Positions 10,729 to 26,686 of a stretch of 38,941 nucleotides of DNA are shown piece by piece. How positions within the stretch are numbered: position 1 is the first letter of the stretch; every line of letters begins with the position of its first letter. The stretch is from Prolixibacteraceae bacterium. Lineage in GTDB: Bacteria; Bacteroidota; Bacteroidia; Bacteroidales; Prolixibacteraceae. The notes beneath the pieces are model-generated. The model saw nothing but the letters and a program-made list of their open reading frames with translations, did not search any database and was not told the origin of the DNA. The translations under genes and the position numbers were made by a program. The DNA is taken from assembly GCA_025355875.1 (NCBI GenBank), contig JANXYV010000098.1:1-38941 (forward strand), in the 5' to 3' direction.

Positions 10729-13700
10729 TTAATCTTTGTACTCGTCCCAGCTTTTAATCGTCAAGTCTTCCATTCCGTATTTACAGAAGGCGTATATAAA
10801 AGCGCTCGCTACGCGGGCATTGGTAATCAAAGGTATGCTGTAATCAATTGCGCTACGACGGATAGTGTATCCGTTGGTGATTTCACGGGTGGTATGGTCT
10901 TTCGGAATGTTGATAACCAAATCGATCTTCTTTTCCTTAATATACTCCAATGTATTCGGATGTTTGTCAGTTTCATCAGGCCAGAAAAGTCGGGTTGACA
11001 CAACCCCATTGTCAGCCAAAAATTGCTGTGTTCCTCCGGTGGCATAAAGGTTAAAGCCACGTTCAGCAAGCATTCTGGCGCTGCTGAGTAATTCAATTTT
11101 CGAGCGCGTTTCACCCGATGAAATCAGGATGTTTTTCTTCGGAATAGAATATCCTACCGAAAGCATCGATTTCAGGATGGCTTCGTAAAAGTTTTCACCG
11201 ATACAGCCCACTTCCCCTGTTGACGACATATCGACACCCAAAACCGGGTCGGCATTCAGTAACCGTGCAAAAGAGAACTGAGCTGCTTTCACGCCAACAT
11301 AATCCAATTCAAAAAGCGATTTGTCGGGCTTCTGGAAAGGAACATCCAGCATAACCTGTGTGGCAATTTCAATCAGATTGTATTTCATCACCTTCGAAAC
11401 GAACGGGAAACTGCGCGATGCCCGGAGGTTGCATTCGATGACCTTAATATCATTGTCTTTTGCCAGCAACTGCATATTGAAAGGCCCGGTAATATAGAGT
11501 TCTTTGGCAATCTGGCGGGCAATTTTCTTGATCCGGCGAATAGTTTCGATATACAACTTTTGAGGAGGAAAAACGATGGTTGCATCGCCTGAGTGAACTC
11601 CTGCAAACTCCACATGCTCCGAAATGGCATATGCCACAACCTCCCCATTTTTTGCAACGGCATCTATTTCAATTTCTTTGGCTTGCTCAATAAATTCGGA
11701 AACCACCACCGGATGTTCCTTCGATACATTGGCTGCCAGCGTGAGAAAATGCTGCAACTGGTCTTTGTTCGAAACCACGTTCATGGCTGCGCCTGAAAGC
11801 ACATATGAAGGACGGATCAGAACCGGGAAATCCACTTCATCGACAAATGTATAGATGTCTTCGATACTTGTAAGTTCTGACCACCGGGGCTGGTCGATGC
11901 CAAGCATATCGCACAACGAACTGAATTTTTTACGGTCTTCGGCGCGATCAATATTGGTGGGTGAGGTGCCCAAAATCGGAACGTTCTGACGGTGCAATTT
12001 CATAGCCAGGTTATTTGGAATCTGTCCACCCATCGACAAAACCACACCTTTTGGCACTTCCAGATCAACAATGTCCATCACCCGTTCGAAAGTCAGTTCA
12101 TCGAAATACAGCCGGTCGCAGGTATCATAATCAGTACTCACCGTCTCCGGATTGTAATTAATCATGACTGAACGATAATTTTCCTTGTGGATCGTGGTAA
12201 TCGCGTTCACACTGCACCAGTCGAATTCGACAGAACTTCCTATGCGGTATGCTCCAGAACCCAAAACAATTACTGACTTTTCGTCGCGTGGAAATTCCAC
12301 ATCGTGTTCGTTTCCGTTGTAGGTCAGGTACAAGTAGTTGGTCTGTGCCGGATATTCGCCTGCCAAAGTATCTATTTGTTTTACCGAGGGCAAGATATTC
12401 TTGCTCTTGCGCCATTCGCGCACTTTCAGCAAATCGCTGGTAATATTTTTATTCGACGATTTCAACACCAAACGGGCTAGCTGAAAATCGGAAAATCCTT
12501 CCTTTTTTGCCTGAAGCAATAGGGCATCGTCCAGTGTTGGAAGTGAATTGACTTGCTCCAGCTTATTTTTTGTGACATGTATATTATGAAGTTTTTGCAA
12601 AAACCACCGGTCAATTTTGGTCTTTTCATAGATTTCATCCACTGAATAATCTTTGTTGAATGCCTCAGCAATAGCGAAGATTCTGCGATCTGTTGGATTG
12701 CTCAGCTCTTCGTCGATCTGTTCAATGGTGATTTCCTCATTATTTGCCACAAATCCATGCATCCCAATTCCGACCATTCGGATACCTTTCTGAATGGCTT
12801 CTTCGAATGAGCGGCCAATCGACATGATTTCTCCTACCGATTTCATTGAACTTCCCAGGTTTTTCGATACTCCGGAAAATTTATTCAAATCCCAGCGTGG
12901 AATTTTACAAACGATATAGTCAAGGGCGGGTTCGAAAGCAGCTGTGGTCACTTTGGTCACCTGATTACTCAGTTGGTGCAACCCATAGCCCAAACCCAGT
13001 TTCGCTGCCACGAAAGCCAACGGATAACCGGTTGCTTTAGAAGCCAGTGCAGAAGAGCGCGACAAACGAGCGTTTACCTCAATTACCCGGTAATCTTCCG
13101 AGTGTGGATCGAGCGCATATTGTACGTTACATTCACCCACGATTCCGATATGACGGATAATCTTGATGGCAAGCGCACGTAGTTTGTGATATTCAGAGTT
13201 TGAAAGGGTTTGCGACGGAGCAACTACGATACTTTCGCCGGTATGAATGCCAAGCGGATCGAAATTCTCCATGTTACAAACCGTGATGCAATTATCGAAC
13301 CGGTCACGGACCACTTCGTATTCCACCTCTTTCCAGCCTTTGATTGATTCTTCAACGAGAATCTGAGGTGAATATGTGAATGCCTTTGATGCCAATGATT
13401 CCAGTTCTTCATCGTTGACGCAGAATCCGCTACCCAATCCTCCCAGCGTATAAGCAGCCCGGATGATGATTGGATAACCAACGATTTTAACTGCGGCAAA
13501 AGCTTCTTCCATGTTTAGGCAGGCAATGCTTCGGGGAGTCAACACATCAATCTCAGCCAGTTTTCCGGAGAAAATTTCACGGTCTTCGGTATCAATAATT
13601 GATTGAACCGGAGTTCCAACCACTTTTACATTGTATTTATCCAGAATTCCCTGACGGAAAAGTGCAACCCCGCAATTCAGGGCTGTTTGTCCGCCGAAAG

Positions 13701-13962
13701 CCAGCAAAATTCCATCCGGTTTTTCCTTGATGATCACTTGTTCTACAAAAAACGGTGTCACAGGAAGGAAATAAATCCGGTCGGCAATATCTTCCGAAGT
13801 TTGAATGGTTGCGATGTTCGGATTAATCAGAACGGTTTCCACATTCTCCTCTTTCAGGGCTTTCAATGCCTGAGATCCGGAATAGTCGAACTCACCGGCC
13901 TCACCGATTTTCAGCGCTCCCGACCCCAGTACGATTACTTTTTTAATGTCTTTATTTATCAT
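10729..13962 (-). CDS. carB: Carbamoyl-phosphate synthase large subunit, arginine-type
   Basis: 1077 residues, full length. It makes carbamoyl phosphate from ATP, bicarbonate and ammonia passed from CarA. Two homologous ATP-grasp halves are visible (GSGALKIGEAGEFDYSG at the N-terminus and GSGAYRIGSSVEFDWC near residue ~560). A C-terminal MGS-like regulatory domain follows (SARMLAERGFNLYATGGTQ). The N-terminal segment DRIYFLPVTPFFVEQVI and the GGQTALNCGVALFRQGIL region look more like animal CAD/CPS1 than like the common bacterial enzyme. The position beside argR and the arg operon suggests the arginine-dedicated copy; a second, pyrimidine copy may lie elsewhere. It starts 74 bp after carA, across a heptanucleotide repeat, and ends at a terminator. 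Confidence 0.95.
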   Translation of the reverse strand: MINKDIKKVIVLGSGALKIGEAGEFDYSGSQALKALKEENVETVLINPNIATIQTSEDIADRIYFLPVTPFFVEQVIIKEKPDGILLAFGGQTALNCGVALFRQGILDKYNVKVVGTPVQSIIDTEDREIFSGKLAEIDVLTPRSIACLNMEEAFAAVKIVGYPIIIRAAYTLGGLGSGFCVNDEELESLASKAFTYSPQILVEESIKGWKEVEYEVVRDRFDNCITVCNMENFDPLGIHTGESIVVAPSQTLSNSEYHKLRALAIKIIRHIGIVGECNVQYALDPHSEDYRVIEVNARLSRSSALASKATGYPLAFVAAKLGLGYGLHQLSNQVTKVTTAAFEPALDYIVCKIPRWDLNKFSGVSKNLGSSMKSVGEIMSIGRSFEEAIQKGIRMVGIGMHGFVANNEEITIEQIDEELSNPTDRRIFAIAEAFNKDYSVDEIYEKTKIDRWFLQKLHNIHVTKNKLEQVNSLPTLDDALLLQAKKEGFSDFQLARLVLKSSNKNITSDLLKVREWRKSKNILPSVKQIDTLAGEYPAQTNYLYLTYNGNEHDVEFPRDEKSVIVLGSGAYRIGSSVEFDWCSVNAITTIHKENYRSVMINYNPETVSTDYDTCDRLYFDELTFERVMDIVDLEVPKGVVLSMGGQIPNNLAMKLHRQNVPILGTSPTNIDRAEDRKKFSSLCDMLGIDQPRWSELTSIEDIYTFVDEVDFPVLIRPSYVLSGAAMNVVSNKDQLQHFLTLAANVSKEHPVVVSEFIEQAKEIEIDAVAKNGEVVAYAISEHVEFAGVHSGDATIVFPPQKLYIETIRRIKKIARQIAKELYITGPFNMQLLAKDNDIKVIECNLRASRSFPFVSKVMKYNLIEIATQVMLDVPFQKPDKSLFELDYVGVKAAQFSFARLLNADPVLGVDMSSTGEVGCIGENFYEAILKSMLSVGYSIPKKNILISSGETRSKIELLSSARMLAERGFNLYATGGTQQFLADNGVVSTRLFWPDETDKHPNTLEYIKEKKIDLVINIPKDHTTREITNGYTIRRSAIDYSIPLITNARVASAFIYAFCKYGMEDLTIKSWDEYKD

Positions 13963-14036: not shown

Positions 14037-15128
14037 TTACTTCTTCGTCTTTTTATATTCAATCACATTCTTCATGAAATCATCAAACAGAAACTCGGTA
14101 TCAACCGGTCCGCTGGCAGCTTCAGGATGGAATTGCGTCGAGAAGAAAGGTTTGGTTTTATGGCGGATTCCTTCGTTGGTTTGGTCGTTTACGTTGGTAA
14201 ACAAGGGTTCCCAATCAGCAGGTAACGTTTTGGTATCGACAGCGAAACCGTGGTTCTGTGAAGTGATGAAACAGCGATCGGTTCCTTGCAGCAACACCGG
14301 TTGGTTGTGACTGCGGTGACCGAATTTCAGCTTGTAGGTTTCAGCTCCGGCAGCACGCGCCAACAACTGGTTTCCGAGGCAAATTCCCATGATTGGCTTT
14401 TCTGCAGCCATCGTTTTTCGGATGTTTGCAACAGTAGCATCGCACAAAGCCGGATCACCAGGTCCATTCGAAAGAAAGATTCCGTCAAAATCTTCAGTAT
14501 TGAAATCATAGTCCCAGGGCACAACAATAACCGTCGCATTTCTATTCATCAAACAACGGATGATATTATATTTTACACCGCAATCGACCAAAACAATTCG
14601 GTGTTCACCATTACCATAAACTTCAACTTTATCAGAACTTGCAATGGCAACGAGGTTCTCCTGATTGGGATCATAAAAATCGATCAATTCGTCTTCAAAC
14701 TCAATTTTGCCCAGCAACGAACCTTTTACGCGGATAATTTTAGTCAGAGCACGGGTATCTATTCCGAATAAACCGGGCACTTTATGTTCTTTCAACCAGT
14801 CTCCCAAACTCTTGATAGCATTCCAGTGACTGTATTCAAACGAATAATCCGAAACAATTAAGCCAGTGATATGAATCTTGTCTGATTCGTAAAACTCATA
14901 AAGGTTTTTCTCTTTCGAGTCGCTAGGCACACCATAGTTTCCTATCAGCGGAAAGGTCGATACCAGGATTTGACCGGTATAAGAAGGATCTGTTAAACTT
15001 TCGGGATATCCTGTCATAGCTGTATAAAAAACGACTTCCCCGGCTACTGACTTTTCATATCCGAACGATTGTCCTTCAAAAGTTGTCCCGTCTTCAAGGA
15101 TCAATCTGACTTTTCTAAGTTGTGTCAT
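14037..15128 (-). CDS. carA: Carbamoyl-phosphate synthase small (glutaminase) subunit
   Basis: 363 residues. This class I glutamine amidotransferase supplies ammonia to CarB. The catalytic triad is Cys250 (GICLGNQ), His334 and Glu336 (TQFHPEA). The N-terminal CPSase domain starts VRLILEDGTTFEGQSFG. Segments such as GNYGVPSD, DCGVKYNIIRCL and VVPWDYDF resemble the glutaminase part of eukaryotic CAD, in line with the large subunit. The gene is first in a leftward carA-carB operon. It is preceded by a probable attenuator and leader ORF (see 15155-15279), so its expression is likely controlled by premature termination as well as by initiation. It is divergent from argR. Confidence 0.95.
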   Translation of the reverse strand: MTQLRKVRLILEDGTTFEGQSFGYEKSVAGEVVFYTAMTGYPESLTDPSYTGQILVSTFPLIGNYGVPSDSKEKNLYEFYESDKIHITGLIVSDYSFEYSHWNAIKSLGDWLKEHKVPGLFGIDTRALTKIIRVKGSLLGKIEFEDELIDFYDPNQENLVAIASSDKVEVYGNGEHRIVLVDCGVKYNIIRCLMNRNATVIVVPWDYDFNTEDFDGIFLSNGPGDPALCDATVANIRKTMAAEKPIMGICLGNQLLARAAGAETYKLKFGHRSHNQPVLLQGTDRCFITSQNHGFAVDTKTLPADWEPLFTNVNDQTNEGIRHKTKPFFSTQFHPEAASGPVDTEFLFDDFMKNVIEYKKTKK

Positions 15129-15147
15129 TGTTTCAATGCTAAATATT

Positions 15148-15187
15148 AAAAAAAATGCGTTTGACTACGGCTGTAGGGCAAACGCAT
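15148..15187 (-). terminator. Intrinsic terminator in the carA leader (attenuator candidate)
   Basis: On the minus strand a perfect 9-bp stem (ATGCGTTTG at 15187-15179 with CAAACGCAT at 15163-15155) encloses a second small stem (CTAC/GTAG around AGCC). It is followed directly by a run of eight T (including the last base of the stem). It lies 19 bp upstream of the carA start, inside the leader, and so can only act by stopping transcription before carA. The leader ORF stop is 5 nt before the stem. Confidence 0.7.
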
Positions 15188-15192
15188 GGTTG

Positions 15193-15279
15193 TTATTTCT
15201 TAAACAAACTGTCGGTACTATGTAACTTCGGATTTTCAACCTGGCACTTTTCAAGTTTAAATTCGTATGTCTTTTTCAT
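15193..15279 (-). CDS. Leader ORF of carAB, 28 codons
   Basis: An ATG at 15279-15277 opens a 28-codon frame that ends with TAA at 15195-15193. The peptide begins MKKTYEF and ends DSLFKK. It has seven Lys and no Arg, so it does not look like a classical arginine-codon leader. It begins 8 nt after a -7 promoter element, hence nearly leaderless, with GGCGGAA just before the ATG. A ribosome at its stop would cover the 5' arm of the terminator stem that starts 5 nt later. This resembles the layout of the E. coli pyrBI leader, where translation coupled to UTP-sensitive pausing prevents termination. No peptide homology is claimed. Confidence 0.5.
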   Translation of the reverse strand: MKKTYEFKLEKCQVENPKLHSTDSLFKK

Positions 15280-15287
15280 TTCCGCCA

Positions 15288-15295
15288 CAAAAATA
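15288..15295 (-). promoter_or_regulatory. -7 promoter element for carAB
   Basis: The minus strand reads TATTTTTG, a perfect TAnnTTTG. No clean TTTG is found 19-21 bp further upstream (an A/T-rich run is there instead), so only half of the consensus is seen. It would start transcription near 15282 and give a leader of about 150 nt containing the leader ORF and the terminator. Confidence 0.45.
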
Positions 15296-15318: not shown

Positions 15319-15349
15319 TTTGTAATAACTATTTTTTTGCATAAATTTG
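15319..15349 (+). promoter_or_regulatory. argR promoter
   Basis: TTTG at 15319-15322, a 19-bp spacer and TAAATTTG at 15342-15349 match the full Bacteroidota consensus. Transcription would start near 15355, about 20 nt before the argR start. This promoter is back to back with the carA -7 element, 24 bp apart, so a regulator bound here could affect both directions. Confidence 0.65.
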
Positions 15350-15358
15350 CATCGAAAA

Positions 15359-15372
15359 TGTATATTTATACA
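15359..15372 (+). promoter_or_regulatory. Candidate ArgR operator over the argR start
   Basis: A perfect palindrome TGTATA-TT-TATACA lies between the predicted transcription start and the ATG at 15375. Its AT-rich 14-bp form is compatible with half of an ARG box, although the Bacteroidota consensus is not known to me. Binding here would block argR itself, the usual autoregulation of ArgR. I found no second clear copy in front of the GNAT gene or carA. Confidence 0.4.
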
Positions 15373-15374
15373 AA

Positions 15375-15857
15375 ATGAAGAATCGTACCAAAAGACAGCT
15401 TGCCATTAAACAGGTAATCCTCAGTAGCCGGATCAGCAGTCAGGATGAGCTTTTACGCATCCTGAAAGATCAGGGATTTGAGTTGACCCAGGCTACCTTA
15501 TCGCGCGATTTGAAAATTTTGAAAGTTGCAAAAGTGTCCGATAAGGAGTTGGGATATGTGTATATTATTCCTGAAGGAGTGAATATCGAATCTCAGCGCG
15601 AAAATTCACGGATCAATTTTTTAGCCGATGGGTTTCGCGATTTGCAGTTCTCCGGAAACCTGGCCGTTATAAGGACCTTGCCAGGTTATGCAAACAGCCT
15701 TGCCGTGGTGATTGACAAAGCTGAACCTTATGAAATCATTGGAACCATTGCCGGAGACGATACCATTTTACTGGTCATGCGAGAAGGAATTACGCACAGC
15801 GACCTGATCAACAGCCTCATTCTGGTGATGCCAAAACTGGAGGATAAACTGGGGTAA
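15375..15857 (+). CDS. argR: Arginine repressor
   Basis: 160 residues, normal for ArgR. The N-terminal winged helix-turn-helix domain carries LTQATLSRDLKILKVAKV (Ser43-Arg44-Asp45 in the recognition helix). The C-terminal oligomerisation and arginine-binding domain carries GTIAGDDTILLVMREG (Asp128-Asp129 bind the arginine guanidinium in the family). It is a DNA-binding hexamer with arginine as co-repressor, and probably controls the downstream arg genes, carAB and itself. A strong consensus promoter and a palindrome overlap its 5' region. It is separated from the rest of the operon by ~300 bp of repeats. Confidence 0.95.
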   Translation: MKNRTKRQLAIKQVILSSRISSQDELLRILKDQGFELTQATLSRDLKILKVAKVSDKELGYVYIIPEGVNIESQRENSRINFLADGFRDLQFSGNLAVIRTLPGYANSLAVVIDKAEPYEIIGTIAGDDTILLVMREGITHSDLINSLILVMPKLEDKLG

Positions 15858-19230: not shown

Positions 19231-20046
19231 ATGGAGAGTATCAAACTTAATGACATTCTTAATCTTGAAAACTTATCGAACGTTAAAATCAGATTTAATT
19301 TGATGTTTGAACATAACTGGAATCCAATTGAGATTTTTAAGAATGGTGATTTTCGCGTTATGCTCAAAGGTCAATATTGGAATTACGAAAAGAGAAAATC
19401 TTTCAAGGACGGACAAATTACTGTAGGTTTGATACGAATAAAACCAAAAGAAAACTTATGGCTATTGTTTCATATTGGCAAGATAACCAAAGATTTAAAC
19501 GTATTTAATGGTATTGGATACGAATATGAAACGCTATCTGAATTTGAAAAATATTTTGGACGGCTAATCGTAAAGTTTGATAATAAAGCACAAACAATGA
19601 TTCGTAATGCAGAATCAGTAATTTACGATTGTGAGGTTGCTCAAATTTTGCCTGACACTTTTGATAATGACATTTTCCCTGGTTATGACAAAGTGAATAT
19701 TTCATGGGAAGAAATGTGTCGTGTTTTAGAAAAAGACAATTGGAAGACTTCACTTCAGAATCAAAAAGGAGTTTACCTTATCACTGATGTTTCGAATGGG
19801 AAAAAGTATGTTGGTTCAGCGTATGGCGAAAATATGATTTTAGGGCGCTGGAGAGCATATATCAAAACCGGACATGGTGGCAATTCTAAACTTAAAGCTC
19901 TGCCTTTTGATGACATTAAAAAGTATTTCAGATACTCAATTCTTGATATTTACAAGGCAACTACCAACGATCAATTAATTATCGAGAGGGAAAATTGGTG
20001 GAAAGAAGTTTTTCAAAGTAAAAGGTTTGGTTATAATGAAAATTAG
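19231..20046 (+). CDS. GIY-YIG domain protein inserted in the arg operon
   Basis: 271 residues. The C-terminal ~95 residues form a GIY-YIG nuclease-like domain: G180-V-Y182, then Y193-V-G195, Arg206/Arg208 (LGRWRAY), Glu252/Glu254 (IERENWW) and a terminal GYNEN. The N-terminal ~170 residues (EHNWNPIEIFKNGDFRVMLKGQYWNYEK and following) form a domain I do not recognise. The order of catalytic residues fits a functional nuclease. The gene is visibly more AT-rich than argC and argD on either side, has no role in arginine synthesis that I can name, and is flanked by two copies of the same repeat. It is probably a horizontally acquired cargo gene with unknown target. Confidence 0.7.
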   Translation: MESIKLNDILNLENLSNVKIRFNLMFEHNWNPIEIFKNGDFRVMLKGQYWNYEKRKSFKDGQITVGLIRIKPKENLWLLFHIGKITKDLNVFNGIGYEYETLSEFEKYFGRLIVKFDNKAQTMIRNAESVIYDCEVAQILPDTFDNDIFPGYDKVNISWEEMCRVLEKDNWKTSLQNQKGVYLITDVSNGKKYVGSAYGENMILGRWRAYIKTGHGGNSKLKALPFDDIKKYFRYSILDIYKATTNDQLIIERENWWKEVFQSKRFGYNEN

Positions 20047-26612: not shown

Positions 26613-26686
26613 CGGGGTGTAGCGCAGCTTGGTAGCGTATCCGTCTGGGGGGCGGGGGGTCGCAAGTTCAAATCTTGTCACCCCGA
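26613..26686 (+). tRNA. tRNA-Pro (anticodon GGG)
   Basis: A full cloverleaf can be folded: acceptor CGGGGTG/CACCCCG, D-stem GCGC/GCGT, anticodon stem TCCGT/GCGGG with loop CTGGGGG (anticodon GGG at 26647-26649), 5-nt variable loop, T-stem GCAAG/CTTGT with loop TTCAAAT, discriminator A. The CCA end is not encoded. The 3' end is the attachment site of the element to the right; the gene itself remains intact. Confidence 0.93.

Follow-up and report, generated by a model that had tools for sequence, protein, structure and literature searches.

Carbamoyl phosphate, the product of carAB, is a building block common to arginine and pyrimidines. In Escherichia coli pyrBI, a ribosome translating the leader ORF (pyrL) masks an intrinsic terminator, and the sequence of the peptide is free. 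In attenuators of the trp/his type, the position of the ribosome on a leader peptide decides whether the terminator forms. PyrR-dependent attenuation of pyr and carAB operons also employs a terminator before pyrimidine genes, and in fungi there is the arginine attenuator peptide of CPA1/arg-2. Among the articles that follow, each cited from the portion of its text accessible to the search, one describes a carA motif in Polynucleobacter, an extended imperfect hairpin by the ribosome binding site with 30 beta-proteobacterial examples (PMC8632094), and another the rbfL leader peptide of Staphylococcus aureus, through whose Arg codons arginine supply is read (PMC13009471). For Bacteroidota, the accessible portions report strong indications that amino-acid operons of Flavobacterium psychrophilum are preceded by leader-peptide attenuators (PMC9723704), leader-like small ORFs in Bacteroides (PMC7366714), and mRNAs without Shine-Dalgarno sequences (PMC6847099); in the portion of PMC4833913 the word arginine is absent. 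Leader-peptide attenuation in Bacteroidota is merely hinted at in the literature searched, and no carAB attenuator in this phylum was found among the matches listed, subscription papers lying mostly outside the scope of the search.

We analysed a window of 38,941 nucleotides (the whole stretch of DNA presented) from a member of the Prolixibacteraceae, a family of environmental bacteria, in which carAB is preceded by a short leader and a predicted terminator. The features are as follows:

15288..15295, minus strand: putative promoter -7 box TATTTTTG (by sequence)
15193..15279, minus strand: leader ORF of 28 codons, MKKTYEFKLEKCQVENPKLHSTDSLFKK, with its ATG at 15279 and stop TAA at 15193-15195 (by sequence)
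15155..15187, minus strand: predicted terminator hairpin, outer stem ATGCGTTTG/CAAACGCAT, inner stem CTAC/GTAG (by fold, conservation and covariation)
15148..15155, minus strand: T8 run of the terminator, the first T of which closes the stem (by sequence)
15146..15187, minus strand: second small ORF within the hairpin, MRLPYSRSQTHFF (by sequence)
14037..15128, minus strand: carA, with its ATG at 15128 (Pfam PF00988 and PF00117)
10729..13962, minus strand: carB, large subunit (Pfam PF02786, PF02787 and PF02142)
15375..15857, plus strand: argR, arginine repressor, divergent from carA (Pfam PF01316 and PF02863)
15359..15372, strandless: palindrome TGTATAAATATACA, ARG-box-like (by sequence)
15338..15351, strandless: palindrome TGCAAATTTATGCA, second ARG-box-like site (by sequence)

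The box, the ATG, the stop, the hairpin, the T8 run and carA all lie where the first-pass annotation had placed them, as does the gap of 5 nt between the stop of the leader ORF and the hairpin. The box TATTTTTG is of the type TAnnTTTG, which we take to be the Bacteroidota -7 element, and a box of this type stands 45-107 nt 5' of the hairpin in 109 of 112 family leaders (there is none in L013, L026 and L068). Read on the minus strand from 15187 to 15155, the hairpin has the order ATGCGTTTG-CC-CTAC-AGCC-GTAG-T-CAAACGCAT, and by its sequence it is a predicted intrinsic terminator between the promoter and carA, the first gene. The small ORF that begins with it (ATG CGT TTG CCC TAC AGC CGT AGT CAA ACG CAT TTT TTT TAA) has a conserved start and a conserved arginine codon 2; its remaining codons are not conserved. 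The palindromes TGTATAAATATACA and TGCAAATTTATGCA, 5' of the promoter, resemble what we take to be the ARG box consensus, and similar ones are seen by eye before carA in relatives. Since these two sites lie between the divergent argR and carA, repressor and attenuator may both govern carAB. Elsewhere in the window, between the argC-like and aminotransferase genes of the arg cluster, lies a 271-aa ORF (19231-20046, plus strand) that, judging by a motif, presumably has a GIY-YIG-like look.

The window hairpin folds at -13.9 kcal/mol (z -5.96), with none of 200 shuffles as good; the ORF stretch 5' of it is unremarkable in structure (z +0.75; equalled by 156 of 200 shuffles). It was not listed by a simple terminator scan of the window, which takes loops of 3-8 nt, the stem here having an internal loop, and it falls in no known Rfam family, a search of the whole window at the gathering score having matched only the tRNA at 26613-26686. 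A carA search (above 300 bits) found the gene in 54 of 61 genomes, the window's own included; where the DNA upstream was then read, family members had the hairpin ahead of carA. A pattern for the hairpin matched 115 of 140 Prolixibacteraceae genomes, in 21 of 23 genera and mostly at one place per genome; the window's own genome has a second match at C108:33245. Outside the family the pattern matched 42 of 394 genomes of the class sample, and carA was present at none of the 29 of these 42 loci that were fetched. In the order's other families, none of the 18 upstream regions of carA contains the hairpin within 400 nt. Among the 25 family genomes without the pattern, carA was found in 15 and upstream DNA was available for 13, each of which carries a variant of the hairpin (13 of 13). 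Because these 25 genomes were also searched through carA, the union of hairpins is near a census, which by our tally leaves out eight pattern-positive genomes. It comprises 112 measured hairpins, 65 found via a pattern that fixes ATGCGTT and 47 via carA alone, and the T run precedes carA by 14-53 nt in all of them; at L075, L076 and L121 the portion of carA was too small for placement.

The covariation set consisted of 39 hairpins hand-picked to span genera from 81 unique ones, with L069 excluded. In this set 88.3% of cells are paired and 32 cells have changed on both sides, neither value being equalled in any of 500 shuffles, and 7 of 13 pairs have changed on both sides, a number reached by 2 of 500 shuffles; three inner pairs are unpaired in 12-19 of the 39 rows as aligned. 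Judged by comparison of sequences, the window hairpin is conserved far beyond chance. In the counts of leaders below, identical leaders are counted once, three groups of near-identical leaders weigh on the numbers, and genus g8 is excluded from most, because there the hairpin is far from carA. In that genus (L070, L074-L078 and L145) the hairpin lies 60 to more than 150 nt before carA where carA is present, the leaders carry GTG CGA (or CGG) near their 5' end, and an upstream AACGC(A) is, by eye, able to pair with the 5' arm of the terminator.

At the base of its 5' arm the hairpin contains a conserved start codon with an arginine codon directly after it, a feature that the first-pass annotation had overlooked. 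The arm begins with NTG CGN in 111 of the 112 family loci measured, including 46 of the 47 found through carA alone, where the motif was not used; by eye the codons are also present in L070 and L145 of genus g8. The first codon is ATG, GTG or TTG and the second CGT, CGA or CGC. At the exception, L069, the hairpin base reads TGA CGC, and the leader ORF ends exactly there. The pairs further up the stem (n=80) are U.A in 44, U.G in 32, A.U in three and C.G in one at position 6, and U.A in 55, U.G in 25 and C.G in none at position 7; three C.G pairs occur at position 8. Given 57 U.G pairs versus one C.G at positions 6 and 7 together, drift is largely confined to the 3' arm. A purine stands at -3 of 96% of hairpin starts (n=78), 97% of carA ATGs (n=65) and 53% of leader-ORF starts (n=58). 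Elsewhere before the hairpin start, purines amount to 87% at -1, 75% at -2 and 68% at -4, the A+G baseline of the leaders being 67%. According to the accessible portion of one study, initiation in Flavobacterium is favoured by A at -3, and Bacteroidetes have fewer stray AUGs close to starts than expected (PMC6847099). The conservation and the purine at -3 fit a genuine start codon, then an arginine codon, in the hairpin. The T at stem position 7 is invariant too, which an arginine codon at positions 4-6 leaves unexplained, and stem strength may by itself account for the fixed GC pairs at positions 3-5.

Two other leaders offer a comparison. In genus g34, of another family, carA was found in 23 of 25 genomes, and all 23 loci (L177-L199) have a terminator-like hairpin AGGAAC...GTTCC (AGGAACAGATAT..GTTCC) before the gene. 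The g34 leader contains a short, mostly Lys-rich uORF, the ATG of which was placed 38-57 nt before GGAAC (four of these being spurious), and a 5' hairpin CAGATATTC/GAATATTTG whose 3' arm could, by eye, pair with the 5' arm of the terminator; in the frame test 20, 17 and 19 of 23 were open, the spurious ATG having been taken in L179, L181, L183 and L188. The second comparison is pyrB of the Prolixibacteraceae themselves, above cut-off in all 11 family genomes searched. A terminator-like hairpin ACCAA...TTGGT precedes it in 9 of the 11, one being without it and one cut by a contig end; the arms ACCAACAG..CTGTTGGT and the T run, directly 5' of pyrB, are conserved. In seven of these nine (L270, L273-L275 and L278-L280; the window's own genome is L271, G000:C195) a leader ORF of at least 55 codons has its start 145-156 nt ahead of the hairpin and extends into or through it. 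NTG CGN is absent from the carA hairpins of g34 (23 loci) and from the pyrB hairpins. Since both stems are conserved without these codons, a conserved stem need not imply them.

The leader ORF follows a different pattern of conservation from that of the hairpin. The first-pass annotation had proposed an attenuator in which a ribosome on the leader ORF comes to lie over the 5' arm, and this relation is kept across most of the family; its 28-codon ORF does not hold as a conserved unit, for start codon, stop and frame all vary. Of what it expected from an alignment of carA upstream regions, the hairpin with covariation was recovered, and conservation of ORF length and stop position was not. Within the window's genus, the ATG of the 28-codon ORF is present in 10 of the 20 leaders covering the place, and its frame stops at -8 (five leaders, the window copy among them, just before the hairpin), +20 (11), +39 (four) or +45 (one) relative to the hairpin base. 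Excluded both from this count and from the frame test was L021, the most divergent member of the genus, where by eye the ATG frame stops after nine codons. The frame test found 20, 17 and 0 of 21 frames open, with L017 and L018 wrongly anchored; as two frames are mostly open, coding is less certain in this genus. None of 20 leaders there has a start at about -43. Across the other genera of the family, 73 of 85 unique leaders have an ATG or GTG positioned 37-46 nt ahead of the hairpin, and 16 of 21 genera include at least one such leader; 200 rounds of shuffled leaders gave a mean of 21.8 and a maximum of 32 with a start at -46..-37. Outside the window's genus, 69 of 70 leaders keep the frame of the leader ORF free of stops as far as -16; for the other two frames the numbers are 29 and 48. 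The stops range from -19 to +122 (64 of 70 within -19..+26), and the three possible frames with respect to the hairpin are taken by 29, 24 and 17 leaders, only 17 of the 70 leaders being in frame with the CGN codon of the hairpin. Peptide, frame and stop vary, yet the ORF reaches the hairpin, and thus the arrival of a ribosome on the 5' arm seems to be what matters. By its sequence, such a leader ORF would be able to bring a ribosome over the terminator arm. The element is most likely a conserved attenuator, of which the hairpin, start and arginine codon included, forms the tight part and the 28-codon ORF a loose one.

The first-pass annotation had also noted that the window ORF contains no Arg codon, which is correct (there are zero), and had judged classical arginine attenuation unlikely on that ground. 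With a start and an arginine codon of the hairpin's own, at 111 of 112 loci, arginine is again a candidate signal. Within the leader ORF itself, Arg codons show no enrichment: they make up 101 of 900 codons in frame, versus 116 of 866 and 57 of 845 when the frame is shifted (counted over the 77 leaders that have a start; L033 has none). It is therefore the hairpin codon alone that argues for arginine.

We propose the following scheme. By default, the polymerase would make the leader, the hairpin would fold and transcription would end at T8. If a ribosome were on the 5' arm as the polymerase reached T8, the hairpin would stay open and carAB would be transcribed. Ribosomes could enter by two routes: through the leader ORF, unconserved in sequence and ending just before or inside the hairpin, or at the hairpin's own NTG, which stands at the foot of the 5' arm with the arginine codon CGN next to it. 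A ribosome starting at the hairpin would need Arg-tRNA for codon 2. Under arginine shortage it would pause on the 5' arm and hold the terminator open, and with ample arginine it would leave. The sequences show the hairpin with its conservation and covariation, the leader ORF that reaches it and the frozen NTG CGN; from these we infer termination at the hairpin, use of both starts and arginine as the signal. A ribosome-masking attenuator, taking arginine reading and its coupling rival together, is very likely from the sequence pattern. That carAB is governed by a ribosome-mediated attenuator with arginine supply at the hairpin codon as the signal is a plausible reading of the same pattern, to which we lean tentatively. 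Among the candidate signals, arginine read at the hairpin codon ranks first, with coupling between translation and transcription as the main rival. A point against arginine reading is that in most leaders the hairpin start needs to be used independently, before folding.

In the coupling alternative, a real possibility if a less than probable one, the codons are irrelevant: a slow polymerase (low UTP or NTP) or fast starts would let a ribosome mask the terminator, and NTG CGN in the hairpin would be a reinitiation site or an RNA constraint, with no arginine sensing. It draws support from the lack of conservation in peptide, frame and stop, with translation nonetheless extending to the hairpin, and from the long leader ORF that runs into or through the conserved terminator-like hairpin before the family's pyrB. 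The accessible portion of one study also shows that ribosomes close to a terminator suppress it: in E. coli, moving the stop codon from 28 to 5 bp before the terminator lowered termination from ~90% to <10%, a minimum of 10-15 nt of free RNA being regarded as necessary, and terminators located within the first 100 bp of a coding region are effective (PMC4824070). The distance in the window is likewise 5 nt, which favours direct masking. Another, likewise seen as an excerpt, has the pyrL leader acting through coupling (PMC5021804). The pyrimidine-rich pause stretch is, however, missing from the carA leader. At -36..-1 outside the window's genus its composition is A 50%, U 22% and C 11% (at -70..-1 in the window's genus, U 24% and C 13%), whereas in the pyrB leaders U amounts to 35% and C to 21% at -100..-20, a count that includes L271, anchored on a wrong AACCAA, L277 being cut by a contig end. 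In composition and layout the family's pyrB leader is pyrL-like, and the carA leader is not. The pyrBI-like scheme favoured by the first-pass annotation is borne out as regards an ORF that reaches the terminator and is free in peptide sequence and sits poorly with a leader that is A-rich at 22% U. Coupling also leaves NTG CGN unexplained.

A rather improbable alternative is that the frozen 5' arm UGCGUUU is a binding site, recognised by a protein or small RNA or through alternative pairing of the RNA, with no role for the ribosome. Seven nearly invariant bases, position 7 included, would suit such a site, and in 5 of 22 genus groups pairing of the leader with the 5' arm is on average stronger than in shuffles (mean z of -3.0 in g45, -1.4 in g42, -0.9 in g7, -0.6 in g12 and -0.1 in g5), as well as by eye in g8, which the duplex test left out; yet in the other 17 groups the mean z is zero or above, so that the test revealed no general antiterminator. 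The changes that do occur sit at degenerate positions of the start and arginine codons and in codon 3, which counts against a binding site, and the signature of the leader ORF would go unexplained. PyrR, searched with model NF003549 only, was above cut-off in none of 10 family genomes and in 6 of 14 controls.

Far less probable still is a classical Arg-codon leader peptide with a 1:2 / 2:3 / 3:4 RNA switch. We first read such an attenuator from the Arg codons near the hairpin in several ORFs (e.g., L036, L067, L129 and L133), and 60 of 77 leaders have at least one Arg codon; the frame control removed it, for the +1 frame does equally well (59 of 77 leaders) and holds more Arg codons in total, and neither a general antiterminator nor an Arg codon in the window ORF was found. 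A single locus of genus g34 (L045, the same as L191) was likewise considered as an Arg-codon leader, which is not kept in its 22 relatives. Finally, although the window's own genome has 148 matches to an ATG-based hairpin and T-run pattern, and among the matches listed hairpins with an ATG/CAT base and a T run resemble ordinary terminators by eye, it is scarcely credible that the carA hairpin is the non-regulatory terminator of an upstream or antisense transcript, as argR is divergent, the promoter box lies 5' of the hairpin, and its place before carA is kept in the 112 loci, the g8 hairpin lying further off.

Returning to the reading with arginine as the signal, its boldest form has the terminator as its own sensor, held open by a ribosome awaiting Arg-tRNA on the 5' arm, which we regard as possible and somewhat speculative. 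If true, the leader peptide would here be reduced to one codon, and an attenuator kept across the family would show how little ribosome-read control requires; a start and an arginine codon within the stem would, in addition, permit a clean one-codon swap with compensation in the stem. As carAB feeds both arginine and pyrimidines, which signal is read is a real question, sharpened by the pyrL-like leader of pyrB.

Set beside the known systems, the carA leader shares with pyrBI (pyrL) a leader ORF that reaches a terminator before a pyrimidine-pathway operon, with the peptide sequence free. It differs in being short and A-rich, in often stopping before or inside the hairpin, and in that the terminator itself bears a conserved start and Arg codon. 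As in the trp/his type, a codon of the pathway amino acid sits where the ribosome would wait; unlike that type, there is one Arg codon, in the terminator's own 5' arm and beside a start codon, with no general antiterminator and without an excess of regulatory codons in the leader ORF. PyrR-dependent attenuation has the terminator in common with the carA leader, but PyrR was above cut-off in none of the 10 family genomes searched. The Polynucleobacter motif is also a structured RNA directly before carA, for which the accessible text describes no terminator or uORF, and rbfL, as far as its available portion goes, resembles the carA leader in having a very short leader ORF and, if arginine is the signal before carA, in reading arginine supply through Arg codons, whereas it blocks a ribosome binding site and targets a biofilm regulator. 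A self-sensing terminator would, if true, be the bacterial counterpart, at the same gene, of the fungal arginine attenuator peptide of CPA1/arg-2.
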